Below, one piece after another: positions 2,303 through 7,499 of a stretch of 64,000 nt of DNA; position 1 is the stretch's first letter, and every line of letters begins with the position of its first letter. The notes under the pieces were generated by a model. That model saw nothing but the letters and a program-made list of their open reading frames with translations, was not told where the DNA came from and did no database searches. Origin of the DNA: Zhongshania sp. (GTDB lineage: Bacteria; Pseudomonadota; Gammaproteobacteria; Pseudomonadales; Spongiibacteraceae); NCBI RefSeq assembly GCF_029212375.1, contig NZ_JARGNU010000009.1, positions 1 to 64,000 of the forward strand, in the 5' to 3' direction. A program made the position numbers and the translations under genes.

Positions 2303-2839
2303 TTAGCAGCGGGTGATCAATTGCACATCAACATTACTGGTGGCGTCAGAAAACCACACTGAACCTTCGTCGATGGTGCACTGCAATTTCATGGTGCGCT
2401 GTGCCATGGCGGTAAGTACGGCGGAGTCTTCGGTATTTACTTCAATAACCCGCACATTGCCGTAGCGGCTGATTTTACTGCTGTGCTCATCCCACCACAT
2501 TTGCGCGGTGCGACCGCCGTAAATTAGCAGCACAACTTGCTTAGCAATGCCGCGGGCTTTGCGCATGCGTTTTTCGCTGGGCAGGCCGAGCTCGATCCAT
2601 AAGTCGATTTCACCGGTGAGGGACTTGAGCCATAAATCGGGTTCGTCGTCGGTGCTTAGACCTCTGGTAAATTCCAAATGCTCTTCGGCATAGAGGGCAA
2701 AGGCGAGTATGCGCAGCATCATGCGCTCATCGGTTTCCGAAGGATGACGGGCAACGGTAAATTGATGGGTTTGATAATAGTGACGGCGAATATCACTGAT
2801 ATCGAGGGTGGTTTTAAACAGCGTGGCATTTAGGGCCAT
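2303..2839 (-). CDS. yaeQ: YaeQ family protein
   Basis: A 178-residue member of the YaeQ family, a cytoplasmic protein with a restriction-endonuclease-like fold. E. coli YaeQ was proposed to compensate for loss of the RfaH antiterminator, but its biochemical role is unsettled. Family features: start MALNATLFK, the ERMMLRILAFALYAEEHLEFTRGLS block, DEPDLWLKSLTGEIDLWIELG, and the C-terminal LQCTIDEG segment. Length matches the family (about 180). It lies 49 bases after the YqaA-like gene and may share its operon. Confidence 0.9.
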   Translation of the reverse strand: MALNATLFKTTLDISDIRRHYYQTHQFTVARHPSETDERMMLRILAFALYAEEHLEFTRGLSTDDEPDLWLKSLTGEIDLWIELGLPSEKRMRKARGIAKQVVLLIYGGRTAQMWWDEHSSKISRYGNVRVIEVNTEDSAVLTAMAQRTMKLQCTIDEGSVWFSDATSNVDVQLITRC

Positions 2840-2888: not shown

Positions 2889-3314
2889 TTAAAAGGCGGC
2901 TAGGCCAATAATTACCAGTGCATAGCGCAGGCCTTTGCCAATGCCAACTAAGATAAAAAAGGCGGGGGCGGGCACCTTCATCATGCCGCCGACCACGGTT
3001 AAGGCATCGCCACCAATTGGCATCCACGACATGAGTAACGTCCATTTTCCGTAGCGGAGAAACCAATTTTGGGCGCGCTGCAAATCGACCTTGCGCGCTG
3101 GAAACCAGCGGCGGTCGGCGTATTGCACAAATTTAGACCCCATCCACCAATTCACGCCGGCGCCCAAGGTATTGCCGGTGGTTGCGGCCAGCCATAGCCA
3201 GCCAGGATGCAAACCTTCGCGCAATTGCGCGACCAAGAGTATCTCAGAGTAAAAGGGCAGTAAGGTGGCGGCGCCAAAGGCAACTGCAAAGAGTAGAAGA
3301 TAAGCAGAGATCAC
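2889..3314 (-). CDS. YqaA-like small DedA/VTT-type membrane protein
   Basis: Inner-membrane protein of the YqaA subgroup of the DedA/VTT superfamily, whose larger members act as lipid scramblases or flippases; YqaA itself is uncharacterised. Visible hallmarks are LLPFYSEILLVA near the N-terminus, GNTLGAGVNWWMG, WFLRYGKWTLLMSWMPIGGDALTVVGG and a C-terminal GKGLRYALV helix. A longer reading exists (to 3389), but the GTG at 3314 forms a GTGA overlap with the upstream stop and gives 141 residues, equal to E. coli YqaA (142). Last gene of the amidoligase operon, so it may handle that operon's product (inference). Confidence 0.8.
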   Translation of the reverse strand: MISAYLLLFAVAFGAATLLPFYSEILLVAQLREGLHPGWLWLAATTGNTLGAGVNWWMGSKFVQYADRRWFPARKVDLQRAQNWFLRYGKWTLLMSWMPIGGDALTVVGGMMKVPAPAFFILVGIGKGLRYALVIIGLAAF

Positions 3315-3976
3315 CGGCGCGCACTCGCTACTAAGTGCCGGAATAAATGTAATTGGCGCAATTGAAAAGGCAGGTATTCGGGGTGCCATTGCACACCAAT
3401 GCGGCAGCGGTGCTCGGGATCTTCCACGGCCTGAATAATATAATCGGCGTCGCGACCTGCAACCCGTAAACCTTGGCCAAGGTCTTTAATCGCTTGGTGG
3501 TGAAGGCTATTTATTTTGCACTGCTCTTTGCCAAAGATTTGAAAGAGTTTGCTATAGGTTTCTAAATGCAGGGTTTTACGTGGCAGCAGCATGCGCTTAT
3601 TTGAGGTTAAACGACGCATCATTGTTAGGTCGCTGTGCAGGGTGCCGCCGAGCACCACATTCAGTAATTGCGCACCGCGACAAATACCCAGTATCGGTAA
3701 ACCGCGGCTGAGGCTGAGTTCTAAGGCGATCATTTCGAAACGGTCGCGCTCGCGGTTGATGGGCGCTATTTCTGGCGCATCTGGCATATAAAGGCGCTGA
3801 TCGATATCGTCGCCACCACTAATAATAATGCCGTCTAAGTTTTCGGGGAGGGCGCTGCGGCTGGGGGTGAGTCGATAAGCCTCGGCGCCACAGCGCTGCA
3901 GCGCGAAGCGAATAAACCACCACGCCAGTGGCAGGCGAGTGTCGTCGCCGGTTACCCCAATAAGTGGTCGGCTCAC
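3311..3976 (-). CDS. Class I glutamine amidotransferase-like hydrolase (peptidase C26 / gamma-glutamyl hydrolase type)
   Basis: About 221 residues with a class I glutamine amidotransferase fold. The nucleophile elbow GICRGAQ places the catalytic Cys at 99, and QWHPE supplies the His199/Glu201 pair; SGGDD near residue 54 matches the PuuD/gamma-glutamyl-GABA hydrolase subgroup. Such enzymes either hydrolyse gamma-glutamyl bonds or supply ammonia. Its partner is the amidoligase immediately upstream: the GTG at 3976 overlaps the amidoligase stop by 4 bases (GTGA), and its own stop overlaps the next start in the same way. A longer reading from 3997 is less likely. Coupling of ligase and hydrolase suggests synthesis and trimming, or ammonia supply, for one amide-linked product (inference). 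Confidence 0.82.
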   Translation of the reverse strand: MSRPLIGVTGDDTRLPLAWWFIRFALQRCGAEAYRLTPSRSALPENLDGIIISGGDDIDQRLYMPDAPEIAPINRERDRFEMIALELSLSRGLPILGICRGAQLLNVVLGGTLHSDLTMMRRLTSNKRMLLPRKTLHLETYSKLFQIFGKEQCKINSLHHQAIKDLGQGLRVAGRDADYIIQAVEDPEHRCRIGVQWHPEYLPFQLRQLHLFRHLVASARR

Positions 3977-4989
3977 AGCAGCTCCGGTATTAACCATTGG
4001 CTAACACTGTGCGACCAGTTGGTGAATAGATTGGCGGTGGGGTTATCCAAATAATTGCGATAAGCCTGACACACTGTTTCTAGGCGGCTTTTGTCCATGG
4101 CCAAATTATCTACTTGCAGCCAGTCGCGGTAGGGGTGAATTAAACCCCACTGCGGATCGTCAATTAAGCTATTGGGCAGGCGGTAGTGCAGCGTGGGCCG
4201 CGCTTTAACGCGGTCGTCGTCGACTTTGGCACGCAGCCGTGGCTCGTCGATATGGGCGAACAGCGGCAGCATATCCAAGGCGCGGTTGCGGGTGGGATTG
4301 AACTCTAAGTAATCGTCAATTAGCTGGTCGATATTAGGTTGGTAACTTGGCTTGAGAATCTTGCGCACATAGTCTTTGCCAAAGGGGTCGACATAGGAAG
4401 TTAGGCGGCGACTAAAGTCGACATCGCAGCGCATTTTTAACCATTCGTATAAACATAAGAAAGCGCGCAGATAGTCGAGAATAGTAGCCGCCTCGCAGTC
4501 TGGCATTTCTGGGTTAAGCTGCAAGCCAAAGGCGTTTTTGGCCGAGGCGTGGGTGCCTTGGGCATCGAGATTGCGCAGGTTTACAAACAGGTCTTCTAGC
4601 TGCCATAAGTCGCTCATGGCAATGGGTGGTGCAACGACTTCGAACGGCACTAATTGCTTGGCGATGGCGCCAACAATGGCCTCGGCCAGTTCTTCTAAGT
4701 CATTAGTGTCGGCAGACTCATGACGCTCGCGGCTGATCCGTTTGATGTAGGAAAAGTCCAGTTCAACGCCAAATTGGCCCAGCGAGGTGTCGACAACATT
4801 CACCTCATAGTCAGAGAGCGGCTCGGCGTTACCGCCGTATTGCTGAATGATGGTGTCGACAATGCCGTCAATTTCCATGCCGGTAAATTCAATTTCCACG
4901 CCAAGACGGCGTACGGCGCCAGCTTTGGTATGCAATTGCAGGGGTAACGGCCAGAGTTGCTTTCGGTAGGCATCTAAGGGCTTAGTCAT
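3973..4989 (-). CDS. Putative amidoligase (Amidoligase_2 family, glutamine-synthetase-like fold)
   Basis: A 338-residue protein resembling the amidoligase family PF12224, predicted ATP-dependent ligases related to glutamine synthetase and gamma-glutamylcysteine ligase that join an amine to a carboxylate. It has the expected first-strand motif GVEIEF (residues 30-35, with metal-binding-type Glu32 and Glu34), FGVELDFSY about 45 residues later, and an AFGLQLNPE motif before the helical C-terminal half. The product is unknown for the family. Upstream it overlaps the AI-2E-type permease by 8 bases (ATGACTAA); downstream it overlaps the amidotransferase by 4. The glutamine-amidotransferase neighbour is a pairing described for amidoligases by comparative genomics. 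Family call fairly sure, reaction unknown. Confidence 0.75.
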   Translation of the reverse strand: MTKPLDAYRKQLWPLPLQLHTKAGAVRRLGVEIEFTGMEIDGIVDTIIQQYGGNAEPLSDYEVNVVDTSLGQFGVELDFSYIKRISRERHESADTNDLEELAEAIVGAIAKQLVPFEVVAPPIAMSDLWQLEDLFVNLRNLDAQGTHASAKNAFGLQLNPEMPDCEAATILDYLRAFLCLYEWLKMRCDVDFSRRLTSYVDPFGKDYVRKILKPSYQPNIDQLIDDYLEFNPTRNRALDMLPLFAHIDEPRLRAKVDDDRVKARPTLHYRLPNSLIDDPQWGLIHPYRDWLQVDNLAMDKSRLETVCQAYRNYLDNPTANLFTNWSHSVSQWLIPELL

Positions 4990-6055
4990 TGGTATTTCCT
5001 ATGATATGGGCAAGGGGAAGCAGGCGCTCGGTGTGCTGGCAAACCACCTGAAATAGCGTGAGTAGTGGCACCGCCAGCAATACGCCGGGGGCGCCCCACA
5101 ACCAGCCCCAGAAAAAAATCCACAAAAACACCACAATGGGATTGAGACTAAAACGAAAGCCGTGCACCAGCGGGTCTATAAATTGGCCCACCGCGGCAGT
5201 AAATAGTCCGTAGCCTAGTGGCACTGCGACCATCGCTGCGGGGGTGGGGTAGCTCACCGCGCTGACAATACTGAGTAATATTAGCGTCATGCTGACCCCG
5301 AGATAGGGGATATAACGCAGCAGCGCAGCCACGGCGCCCCACAGCGCGGGATCGGGGAAATCAAACAAATACAACGCTACCGTAGTAATGCAGCCAATCG
5401 CGACGTTGACAGCCGTTATCGTCATTAGGTAGCGGGACATTTGGGTCTGGGCGCGCTGCGCTATCCGCGTGACCACGGCTTTGTCTCTCTGGGTTGGCAG
5501 GCTGTGAATAAAGCGCCGCATTAATGCTTCCCCCGACGTTAGCAGGAAGAATAAAAGAATAATACTCAAGGTGCCGTAAACCCCAAAATTTTTCGCGGTT
5601 TCCCCCAATTCTGAACGCCAGCCCGCTTCACTAATAACGACCCGTGTCACCTCAGGGTTGCTGGGGCTGGCGCTAAGCTCTTGGGCCAGTGAATCGATGC
5701 TACGAGTGGCGGCGTCAACGTCGGGGCTGTCGGTATTAACGCTGCTGAGTTGCTCGCGAACGATCTCGACCGCCTCGGGTACCCGCTGCAACCACTGGCT
5801 GGCGGGTTTGGCAAGGGCGTAAATGCCACTGCCGGCGATGCTTAGGCAAATGCTCATTACGGTTAATGCGGCGAGGCTGCGAGGTAGGCGCAAGGCCTGT
5901 AAGCGACTCACAGCGGGGCTTAGTAATAGTGAGAAAATAAGCGCTAAGGTGATCGGCAGCATGACATCTCTGGCGACCTGTAAAGTGTACAGAATCGCGA
6001 GTATGGCAATGATTTTCAGCGGCCAGTCGGCCGGTTTATTGGGCATGGTTTCCAC
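4982..6055 (-). CDS. AI-2E family transporter (PF01594 permease)
   Basis: Polytopic inner-membrane protein of about 357 residues. It has two N-terminal membrane helices, a ~100-residue hydrophilic loop containing a coiled-coil-like stretch, then a block of membrane helices with the family marks RYIPYLG and GQFIDPLVHG. Members include TqsA (autoinducer-2 export) and various small-solute exporters; names rarely predict substrate. Two possible starts, GTG 6055 and ATG 6046, are not distinguished by a clear ribosome-binding site. As first gene of the operon with the amidoligase, it may export or import that pathway's metabolite (inference). Confidence 0.85.
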   Translation of the reverse strand: METMPNKPADWPLKIIAILAILYTLQVARDVMLPITLALIFSLLLSPAVSRLQALRLPRSLAALTVMSICLSIAGSGIYALAKPASQWLQRVPEAVEIVREQLSSVNTDSPDVDAATRSIDSLAQELSASPSNPEVTRVVISEAGWRSELGETAKNFGVYGTLSIILLFFLLTSGEALMRRFIHSLPTQRDKAVVTRIAQRAQTQMSRYLMTITAVNVAIGCITTVALYLFDFPDPALWGAVAALLRYIPYLGVSMTLILLSIVSAVSYPTPAAMVAVPLGYGLFTAAVGQFIDPLVHGFRFSLNPIVVFLWIFFWGWLWGAPGVLLAVPLLTLFQVVCQHTERLLPLAHIIGNTND

Positions 6056-6440: not shown

Positions 6441-7478
6441 TTAGTTATGGGCGTGGAGCATTTCGTTAAGGGCGATGGCCGATTTATTGGTTAGCACCTC
6501 AACGGCGCCATTTTTGGAATTGCGGCGGAATAGCAAGTCTGACTGACCAGATAGATCGCGAGCCTTGGTGGTGCCGGCAACCGCGCCATCGGCGTCGATC
6601 ATAGTGATTACCGAACCCGCAGTAATGTACAGGCCAGCTTCGATGGTGCAGCGATCACCTAGTGGAATACCGACGCCAGCATTGGCGCCAATCAGGCACT
6701 CTTTGCCCACCGAGATAATAATATTATTGCCGCCAGACAAGGTGCCCATGGTTGAGCAGCCGCCGCCAAGGTCGGAGCCCGCGCCAACCATAACACCCGC
6801 TGAAATACGGCCTTCAATCATGCCGGGGCCTTCGGTGCCAGCGTTAAAGTTAACAAAACCCTCGTGCATGATGGTGGTGCCTTCACCGAGGTAGGCGCCG
6901 AGGCGAACCCGCGCGGTGTGGGCAATACGCACGCCAGTAGGCACTACGTAGTTGGTCATTTTAGGGAATTTGTCTACTGACATCACTTCTAGCATTTCGC
7001 CTTTAAGGCGCGCATCGAGCTGGCGAGCTTTGAGTTCGCTTAGGTCTACCGCGCCTTTATTGGTCCACGCGACATTGGGCAGGGCGCCGAATAGGCCGGT
7101 AAGGTTGATTGTTTGTGGTTTAACGAGGCGGTGAGACAGCAAATGCAGCTTTAAATACCCTTCGGGTACGGAGCTTGGTGCGTCGTCGGTAGTGAGCAAG
7201 GTGACGACCAGGGGCTGGCTACCGCTGGCTAGTTGCACTGCGAGTTCGGCTTGGTCTTTATTGCCGGCAGCTTTAAGGGCCTCGGCAATTTGTGCCATTT
7301 GGTCTTTGGTGACTGCGCTGGCAGTATTGCCTTGTACTGGTTCGAGAACACTGAGGATGGCGTCTACCATTTTGGCCGCAGGTGCTAGTAGGGGTTGAGG
7401 GTAGAAGGTATCTAGCCACTCGCCTTTACGATTTTGGGTGCCGAGGCCGAGGCCGAGTGCGAAATATGTCTGGGTCAT
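6441..7478 (-). CDS. dapD: 2,3,4,5-tetrahydropyridine-2,6-dicarboxylate N-succinyltransferase
   Basis: Cytoplasmic enzyme of the succinylase branch of lysine/meso-diaminopimelate synthesis; it transfers succinyl from succinyl-CoA to tetrahydrodipicolinate. This is the long (~345-residue) DapD form found in pseudomonads and relatives rather than the ~274-residue enterobacterial form. The C-terminal half is a left-handed beta-helix of hexapeptide repeats, with GARIAHTARVRLG-like strands, a glycine-rich LGGGCSTMGTLSGGN loop and IGANAGVGIPLGD. The ATG at 7478 has AAGAGA at good spacing; an upstream TTG two codons earlier is less likely. Grouped with dapC two genes upstream, the next pathway step. 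Confidence 0.95.
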   Translation of the reverse strand: MTQTYFALGLGLGTQNRKGEWLDTFYPQPLLAPAAKMVDAILSVLEPVQGNTASAVTKDQMAQIAEALKAAGNKDQAELAVQLASGSQPLVVTLLTTDDAPSSVPEGYLKLHLLSHRLVKPQTINLTGLFGALPNVAWTNKGAVDLSELKARQLDARLKGEMLEVMSVDKFPKMTNYVVPTGVRIAHTARVRLGAYLGEGTTIMHEGFVNFNAGTEGPGMIEGRISAGVMVGAGSDLGGGCSTMGTLSGGNNIIISVGKECLIGANAGVGIPLGDRCTIEAGLYITAGSVITMIDADGAVAGTTKARDLSGQSDLLFRRNSKNGAVEVLTNKSAIALNEMLHAHN

Positions 7479-7499
7479 TTGCAATGTCTCTTAAGGTGT

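Follow-up and report, generated by a model that had tools for sequence, protein, structure and literature searches.

A conserved amidoligase and C26 hydrolase pair within a four-gene unit of Zhongshania: a candidate for gamma-glutamyl capping of an amine

What would a predicted amide-forming ligase make when it is encoded with a hydrolase and two membrane proteins? The question is raised by four genes in the window analysed here, a 64,000 nt stretch of the marine bacterium Zhongshania sp. (contig NZ_JARGNU010000009.1, positions 1 to 64,000). The first-pass annotation had described them as an AI-2E-type permease, a PF12224-like amidoligase, a class I glutamine-amidotransferase-like hydrolase and a YqaA-like membrane protein, in one direction and joined by overlaps of 8, 4 and 4 bases. 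We found all four on the minus strand with these overlaps (4982-4989, 3973-3976 and 3311-3314), and the family calls for the first, second and fourth genes held in profile scans. Both 4 nt overlaps assume GTG starts at 3976 and 3314; the longest ORFs begin upstream, at 3997 and 3389. The unit is flanked by yaeQ (2303..2839, minus strand), which comes 49 nt downstream of the DedA gene on the same strand, so the transcript may exceed four genes. On the other side is a DapD-like gene (6441..7484, minus strand; the label is our own, given without a family scan). In one congener (G010) all four genes are missing at this site, the YaeQ flank stays and the DapD-like and YaeQ homologues are 216 nt apart. 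A block wholly missing in one congener offers a clean genetic test.

The second gene (3973..4989, minus strand) encodes a 338 aa protein with no membrane segment by hydropathy, scoring 196.1 bits against the Pfam profile PF12224 (cut-off 22). It models as a glutamine synthetase (GS) catalytic-domain fold, in line with the ATP-dependent-ligase-type fold predicted earlier. The structure model (pLDDT 90) was matched to glutamine synthetase by VIA (Z 12.9, rmsd 3.5 Å, 219 residues aligned), and all 50 VIA matches listed are glutamine synthetases or GS-like ligases (Z 11.7-12.9), including GmaS (7cqw) and 1-naphthylamine GS (8x6z, 8wwu). Foldseek returned nothing for the model at E ≤ 0.001 (best 0.011), and sequence searches gave no credible PDB relative. 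The amidoligase profile had no significant match to E. coli YbdK or PuuA; the structural match is the single line to the GS fold. A non-significant profile alignment pairs E32 and E34 with the ELE motif of PuuA. These residues (ExE, codons of E32-I33-E34 at 4888..4896, minus strand), together with D78 and E117, are the candidate GS-type metal carboxylates and are conserved in 121/121 amidoligase sequences. N159, R234 and R264 are kept in all 121 as well, as are H268 and R270 of the HYRLP motif (codons of H268-Y269-R270 at 4180..4188, minus strand).

The third gene (3311..3976, minus strand; 221 aa from the GTG at 3976) encodes a predicted gamma-glutamyl hydrolase, again with no membrane segment by hydropathy. 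Its score against Peptidase_C26 (PF07722) is 154.2 bits (cut-off 20.5) vs 53.2 bits for GATase (PF00117), a PF07722 score that is not specific alone, because 14/14 control genomes pass this profile too. The solved structures ranked highest against its model (pLDDT 94.5) are PuuD (VIA Z 29.9), Lin1909 (29.8) and SpuA (27.9-28.9), whereas amidotransferase domains reach at most 22.4. The gamma-glutamyl peptidase GGP1 of Arabidopsis (9k7l) sits among these domains (Z 20.6), so fold distance does not sort every gamma-glutamyl hydrolase. The protein aligns with PuuD by hhalign (E 3e-32) and misses the PuuD equivalog cut-off (67.2 bits vs 266; NCBIfam PRK11366). The Cys-His-Glu triad is intact: Cys99 (GICRG, codon 3680..3682, minus strand), the predicted nucleophile, and His198 and Glu200 (WHPE, codons within 3377..3385, minus strand) occur in 111/111 hydrolases and are invariant in A4. 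In longer-ORF numbering they are C106, H205 and E207. The earlier label was apt as to the class I GATase-like family; judged from profile and model, the product reads better as a gamma-glutamyl hydrolase close to the PuuD/SpuA type than as a glutamine amidotransferase.

How far the arrangement extends was followed in 121 loci. These are 125 loci minus redundancy, and close relatives, e.g., three Salinivibrio, remain because only sequences with identical last 200 residues were merged. From at least 579 confirmed relatives the named sample takes the best 80 and thus leans to the query. One set of 22 matched genomes contributed 15 newly taken in, with six already in and G625 left out; wide flanks were taken for 12 of 23 matched genomes. 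Two PF12224 members (L062 in G315, L075 in G253) lie beyond the amidoligase profile at E 1e-4, and their neighbours are outside the 121. The hydrolase follows the amidoligase in 111/121 loci, and in 13/15 of the phylum part; because this order recurs, the four-gene arrangement is not a chance one. Distances among amidoligases and among hydrolases are correlated (r 0.84 over 111 pairs, shared ancestry still included; maximum of 200 permutations 0.10). Amidoligase and hydrolase are thus partners in many Proteobacteria. Had the neighbours been limited to close relatives, the earlier proposal would have fallen; conservation reaches further for this pair and partly for the DedA gene, downstream in 44/121 loci (one, L068, a weak match of 60 bits). 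The AI-2E gene is found on the same strand within 2.5 kb in 13/121 loci. Eleven of these come from the window's family, and the AI-2E permease is part of the unit mainly there.

Ten of the 121 amidoligases have no adjoining hydrolase. A genome-wide search detected no PuuD-like C26 protein in G618 (100% complete), G461, G424, G426, G846 and G847, and among the genomes of these ten a GGACT-type cyclotransferase adjoins the amidoligase only in Thiomicrospira. Therefore, some amidoligases seem to do without a hydrolase or cyclotransferase partner. Seven of 11 matched records of plasmid amidoligases were opened, and four of the seven have no hydrolase annotated next door.

Gamma-glutamyl enzymes of unrelated families adjoin the amidoligase in 13/121 loci: a GGACT cyclotransferase in five (four within 60 nt, one 4.5 kb off), a gamma-glutamyltranspeptidase (GGT) in seven and a class-II GATase (GATase_4) in one. 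They lend indirect support to the earlier proposal of a gamma-glutamyl-linked metabolite. Of the seven transpeptidase loci, six appear to form a single Pseudomonas-related group, and all 13 loci belong to the named sample, with 0/45 elsewhere. The families were first spotted by eye and counted later with profiles built from the cases found, so other gamma-glutamyl subtypes could be missed. The GGT and GGACT background covers 50 of the 80 genomes, hand-picked once the neighbours were known, and includes 6/7 GGT and 4/5 GGACT cases, which makes probabilities computed against it optimistic.

The operon, the folds, the conserved catalytic residues, the partnership and the gamma-glutamyl neighbours of other families are supported by computation. 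From these we infer that an amine, perhaps a lipid, is reversibly capped with a gamma-glutamyl group. It is somewhat probable, in our judgement, that the core of amidoligase and hydrolase puts on and removes such a cap and that the amine, compound X, is moved across the membrane. The GS-fold amidoligase, with ATP and a GS-type metal site, would convert the side-chain carboxyl of glutamate to an acyl phosphate and couple the activated glutamate to the amino group of X. The Cys-His-Glu hydrolase would reopen the amide of gamma-glutamyl-X by way of a gamma-glutamyl thioester. Passage of X or gamma-glutamyl-X over the inner membrane may be the task of the YqaA-type DedA protein, joined in the window's family by the AI-2E permease. 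Among the closest known systems is the PuuA/PuuD couple of the E. coli putrescine pathway, likewise a GS-fold ligase with a C26 gamma-glutamyl hydrolase, PuuD being tied with Lin1909 as the top structure. However, PuuA has no significant sequence match to the window's amidoligase and is of a different ligase family, and a scan of the four genes plus three neighbours showed neither the PuuB oxidase nor the PuuC dehydrogenase. With this conserved ligase/hydrolase pair, and with gamma-glutamyl-acting enzymes beside the ligase in some genomes, gamma-glutamyl amides become the bonds to look for, rather than amide bonds at large.

Alternatively, amidoligase and hydrolase may form one system by themselves, and the two membrane genes, unrelated to it, may just be carried along on its transcript. 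The first gene (4982..6055, minus strand) encodes a permease of 357 aa, membrane-bound by hydropathy and of the AI-2E family by profile (PF01594, 149.5 bits vs a cut-off of 34.3). The last (2889..3314, minus strand; 141 aa from the GTG at 3314) is a DedA-family (VTT) membrane protein of YqaA type, passing PF09335 (47.3 bits vs 33.9) and 45% identical to E. coli YqaA over 131 columns (E 3e-27); it fails the NCBIfam cut-offs for the undecaprenyl-phosphate translocase UptA (26.3 bits vs 300, 16.2 vs 250). The passenger explanation draws on the modest DedA and AI-2E counts above and on the 0/15 phylum-sample loci with a DedA gene. It fits, too, with the 4/15 genomes that have a high-scoring YqaA-type protein and no amidoligase, and with the separate contigs that carry the two in 3/11 genomes having both (G127, G201, G301). 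Against it, high-scoring YqaA-type proteins occur in 11/20 amidoligase genomes vs 4/349 others in the class sample, an enrichment uncorrected for kinship and obtained with a profile biased toward amidoligase-linked sequences, from which it was almost wholly made; the 200-bit line was drawn after the gap had been seen. The four genes are also missing together in the congener, and their identical order is seen again in an Oceanococcus MAG (L084). We therefore regard the passenger explanation as possible and somewhat doubtful.

A second alternative, which we think unlikely, is glutamine-dependent amidation: a C26 glutaminase would pass ammonia to the amidoligase, which would amidate a carboxylate, as MurT-GatD does or to give an amide osmolyte. 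The class I GATase-like fold with its intact triad suits this, the 4 nt coupling and correlated divergence suit a complex, and MurT-GatD is a precedent in peptidoglycan amidation (PMC3267633), although the window's partner is a PF12224 protein and a Mur ligase domain is absent among the four genes. The hydrolase model, however, matches PuuD, SpuA and Lin1909 better than any listed amidotransferase domain, with a margin of over 5 Z units (GGP1 scores in the range of these domains), and amidoligases without an adjoining hydrolase exist. In Thiomicrospira ALE5 (L141, G461), where a PuuD-like C26 was not found (best 43.7 bits), one GGACT was detected, 4 nt upstream of the amidoligase, and a cyclotransferase frees no ammonia. 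GGT and class-II GATases act on glutamine too, so only the cyclotransferase cases clearly oppose an ammonia-donor role.

Phage cassettes of the phiEco32, LUZ24 and RIO-1 type, as given in section 16 of PMC5498523, likewise combine amidoligase, gamma-glutamyl cyclotransferase and glutamine amidotransferase genes, the last of class II in the account of phage UFV-P2 (PMC3890496). Genes for a COOH-NH2 ligase and an ATP-grasp protein also belong to such cassettes. An envelope or peptidoglycan modification of the kind proposed for them, with the DedA protein handling a lipid carrier, would agree with their coupling of amidoligase and AIG2/GGCT genes (PMC5498523, PMC3890496, PMC5513430, PMC11945000), with the DedA protein of the unit and with the transpeptidases with lipoprotein-like N-termini and membrane-anchored cyclotransferases that adjoin the amidoligase elsewhere. 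This is distinctly improbable. None of the four genes encodes an ATP-grasp protein, a COOH-NH2 ligase or a class-II GATase, the hydrolase is free of membrane segments by hydropathy, and the solved structures nearest to it are those of enzymes with small-molecule substrates. No phage relative of the amidoligase was found at E ≤ 0.001 by tblastn of 50,697 INPHARED phage records or confirmed among six IMG/VR pattern matches (0/6), both searches reaching close relatives only. With no close viral relative confirmed in either, the phage amidoligases are distant.

Within the capping reading, the amine could be that of a membrane lipid: the amidoligase would cap its amino group with glutamate, the DedA protein would flip the lipid in capped or free form and the cytosolic hydrolase would uncap it inside, while elsewhere a membrane-anchored cyclotransferase or lipoprotein transpeptidase would uncap it on the periplasmic side. 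We offer this version as a long shot. PMC10127716 and PMC8679861, read jointly, imply that YqaA belongs to COG1238. Section 8 of PMC10127716 suggests COG1238 DedA proteins as carriers of uncharged or positively charged lipids, describes their function as known only from one indium-resistance report and gives no operon partner in its account of the YqaA subfamily. Inspection by eye shows no Lys or Arg in the W-x-P-x-G-G-D-A stretch of A5. Were the lipid reading true, PF12224 would gain a function and the COG1238 DedA proteins a class of substrate. The yqaA gene of E. coli K-12 is 72 nt upstream of gshA; this adjacency was considered as a second gamma-glutamyl link and rejected, with a gshA match in 0/20 YqaA-type stretches (7-16 kb each).

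The first-pass annotation also considered the pathway possibly undescribed, which is too strong for its core. The pairing of amidoligase and thiol hydrolase was reportedly proposed by Iyer et al. in 2009, and the Pfam text on PF12224 is reported to pair the family with a GAT-like thiol peptidase; both the family and the type of partner agree with the case here. Annotated Rhodobacterales plasmids name amidoligase and hydrolase genes side by side. To that pairing the present analysis adds the site that lacks the block, the AI-2E and DedA genes as further members and, in cellular genomes, GGACT, GGT and class-II GATase genes as neighbours. Among the papers listed in our literature search there was no work on a cellular amidoligase-C26-YqaA unit and no biochemical study of PF12224; such absence is a weak sign. 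The Pfam library used still names PF12224 putative amidoligase.

Many hosts come from marine and soda-lake settings, and an amide osmolyte was therefore considered; it gained no further support from the neighbouring families. We scanned 28/46 downstream neighbours and 50 upstream ones (49/68 and one of L148), with near-duplicates and, in the window's family, the YaeQ/DUF1499 genes set aside. No amine-catabolism or osmolyte theme appeared among the 25/63 and 25/42 Pfam families listed. The families that recur among those listed are DUF1451 (3), Exo_endo_phos (3), NhaA-type antiporter (2), MgtC (2), MFS_1 (2) and Acatn (2) upstream, and UPF0029 (2) and DUF1949 (2) downstream.

The four genes lie on the minus strand from 6055 to 2889, in the order AI-2E permease, PF12224 amidoligase, C26-type hydrolase and DedA-family membrane protein, and their overlaps of 8, 4 and 4 nt bear out the single-direction arrangement described in the first-pass annotation. 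The unit is flanked upstream by a gene that we label DapD-like (7484-6441) and downstream by YaeQ (2303-2839), which is on the same strand and separated from the DedA gene by 49 nt. After a further 113 nt, a DUF1499 protein (1761-2189) follows on that strand. YaeQ is found downstream of the unit in 7/7 genus loci compared and the DUF1499 protein in 2/7; YaeQ may be on the same transcript as the unit. The genome encodes one PF12224 protein, whose 93% identity to that of Zhongshania antarctica places the window in the Zhongshania/Spongiibacter group, and one high-scoring C26 protein (153.5 bits; the runner-up scores 40.8).

PF12224 is patchy. It was found in 23/57 relatives, 20/369 genomes of the class sample and none of 14 control genomes, and the profile of alignment A1 detected the amidoligase in 22/398 genomes of the phylum sample. 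Loci were pooled from relatives and class (30), from named genomes (76 non-redundant of 80, these being the best 80 of at least 579) and from the phylum (15). A same-strand hydrolase gene follows the amidoligase in 28/30, 70/76 and 13/15 of these, or 111/121; conservation beyond close relatives holds for the amidoligase-hydrolase pair. It extends in part to the DedA gene, with a YqaA-type gene at 15/30, 29/76 and 0/15 loci (44/121), and for the AI-2E gene (13/121) it stands in the window's family (11 loci) and elsewhere only in L064 and L084. The latter, from an Oceanococcus MAG, has the four-gene order of the window with gaps of -1, -4 and -4. In the class sample, 15/369 genomes have a YqaA-type protein scoring above 200 bits, and 11 of these are among the 20 that carry the amidoligase (Fisher p 6e-13, a value that ignores phylogeny and depends on a 200-bit line set at a visible gap and on a profile made almost wholly of amidoligase-linked sequences). 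The two genes are on separate contigs in three of these 11 genomes. That both membrane genes are passengers of the enzyme pair, a reading independent of the others discussed below, we consider rather doubtful. On plasmids (seven loci opened, of 11 matched records) a hydrolase is annotated beside the amidoligase in SC52, Dinoroseobacter shibae and Qingshengfaniella, and no adjoining one is annotated in Azospirillum, Microvirga, Indioceanicola and Rhodovastum. The hosts of the named loci include many that we take to be marine, halophilic or from soda lakes, the last seemingly including several with GGACT-linked amidoligases.

The modelled fold of the amidoligase is as had been anticipated. A model built on an alignment of 25 relatives (pLDDT 90) was compared with 617 chains by VIA-align and matched glutamine synthetase with Z 12.9 (3.5 A, 219 aligned); all 50 matches shown were glutamine synthetases or GS-like ligases. 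Foldseek returned nothing at E <= 0.001, and its top matches, all above that value, were plant glutamate-cysteine ligase, YbdK, Dop and glutamine synthetases. By sequence, the PDB chains held no credible relative (best E 0.13, PCNA). Nine residues (E32, E34, D78, E117, N159, R234, R264, H268 and R270) are invariant in 121/121 sequences. Hydropathy indicated a membrane segment in neither the amidoligase nor the hydrolase.

The third gene, initially described as glutamine amidotransferase-like, does belong to the GATase-like family, but scores higher with Peptidase_C26 (PF07722) than with the generic GATase profile. Its model (pLDDT 94.5) is structurally nearer to PuuD, Lin1909 and SpuA (Z 27.9-29.9) than to amidotransferase domains (Z 22.4 or less); Arabidopsis GGP1, also a gamma-glutamyl peptidase, gave Z 20.6. 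The Cys, His, Glu triad is kept in 111/111 hydrolases. At 67.2 bits the protein falls far under the PuuD equivalog cut-off of 266, and is thus PuuD-like rather than PuuD. The best explanation of the unit, and one we hold to be slightly favored overall, is a reversible gamma-glutamyl cap, which the amidoligase would place on an amine and the hydrolase would remove. Such a cycle would work like that of PuuA/PuuD, although the unit is not part of that pathway.

Other gamma-glutamyl enzymes are found beside amidoligases. The cyclotransferase family GGACT (PF06094) adjoins the amidoligase in L129, L133 (on the opposite strand), L141 and L155, and is 4.5 kb away in L130. A gamma-glutamyltranspeptidase (GGT) is directly upstream in seven loci, confirmed as PF01019 via Pfam in L092, L113, L149 and L150 and via a profile made here in L098, L101 and L121, and a class-II GATase (GATase_4) is alongside in L118. 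The remaining 45 loci, from relatives, class and phylum, yielded none of the three. The GGACT neighbors have an N-terminal hydrophobic stretch preceded by positive charges, and the five transpeptidases whose starts were examined open with a hydrophobic stretch that closes in a lipobox-like cysteine; judging from these termini, both may face the periplasm. Fifty of the 80 named genomes hold 84 GGT and 68 GGACT matches, and within 2 kb of their amidoligases there are six GGT (0.085 by chance) and three GGACT (0.068). The excess is real, but its magnitude is overstated, since the 50 genomes were no blind draw, the families were picked once the neighbors had been inspected, and a single Pseudomonas-related group seems to account for six of the seven GGT loci.

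In Thiomicrospira ALE5 (L141, genome G461) the sole GGACT detected sits 4 nt upstream of the amidoligase, and a genome search found no PuuD-like C26 protein (best 43.7 bits). As a cyclotransferase is unable to supply ammonia, this genome favors a gamma-glutamyl amide product over an ammonia-channelling amidation complex, which we regard as unlikely. An adjoining hydrolase is missing from 10/121 amidoligase loci. Four of these genomes (G026, G301, G459 and G548) have a C26 protein of at least 126 bits elsewhere, and the search returned nothing above 44 bits in the other six (G461, G424, G426, G618, G846 and G847; completeness is known for G618, at 100%). Some amidoligases thus seem, from gene content, to work without this hydrolase.

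The Pfam text, citing Iyer et al. 2009, reportedly states that the neighbor of PF12224 in proteobacteria is a thiol peptidase resembling glutamine amidotransferases, and in fungi an Aig2 cyclotransferase. Published reports describe amidoligase and AIG2-like genes in phage UFV-P2 (PMC3890496) and Arthrobacter phage cluster AL (PMC5513430), an amidoligase in Tn6164 with an AIG2-like gene next after it (PMC3485107), amidoligase and GATase in OM43 phages (PMC10580990), both with a cyclotransferase in a Planctomycetes phage (PMC10945688), and phage cassettes of amidoligase, cyclotransferase and amidotransferase for which peptidoglycan modification was proposed (PMC5498523, PMC11945000). Envelope modification of that kind is an improbable reading of the unit, and it overlaps the reversible cap, as a capped amine could sit in the envelope. 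The pairing and the cyclotransferase link were therefore known in outline, and the suggestion of an undescribed pathway is to be narrowed accordingly. The present analysis adds the YqaA link, the neighbors of chromosomal amidoligases (cyclotransferase, transpeptidase and class-II GATase), the structural assignment of the hydrolase, and a site without the block.

That site is in G010, a 100% complete genome and the one exception among 18 of the genus, 17 of which carry the amidoligase. The DapD and YaeQ homologs are 216 nt apart, versus 3.6 kb in the window; AI-2E, amidoligase, hydrolase and DedA genes of this type are all absent from the 12-kb stretch (L261, G010:C12:83000-95000), and the whole genome holds no PF12224 and no hydrolase of this type (best 28.5 bits). 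At this site the block was lost, or never acquired, as a whole. By eye, the 216-nt spacer is like a small ORF upstream of the window's AI-2E gene, a residual likeness usable to date the gain or loss. The sister-genus genome G018 also lacks the amidoligase and has DapD, but is uninformative about the site because it has no YaeQ. Elsewhere, a 7.2-kb contig (L232, G396:C209) with no amidoligase match has a YqaA-type gene after a 113-aa piece of C26 hydrolase, and resembles a copy of the unit that has decayed or been cut short.

E. coli YqaA and the window's DedA protein share 45% identity. Combining two reports, one tying a COG1238 homolog to indium resistance in Rhodanobacter (PMC10127716) and one naming that homolog YqaA (PMC8679861), lets us place the DedA protein in the COG1238 subfamily, a poorly understood group for which the former report proposed uncharged or positively charged lipids as cargo. 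In E. coli K-12 (L198, 8884-10941) yqaA is 72 nt upstream of gshA on one strand; gshA turned up in none of 20 other YqaA-type stretches checked. The permease is a PF01594 member. At L056, L180, L181 and L183 a divergent gene of ~780-810 residues, perhaps mechanosensitive-channel-like by eye, is upstream of the amidoligase, and two upstream proteins of A3, judged by eye from L132 and L148, match NhaA-type antiporters.
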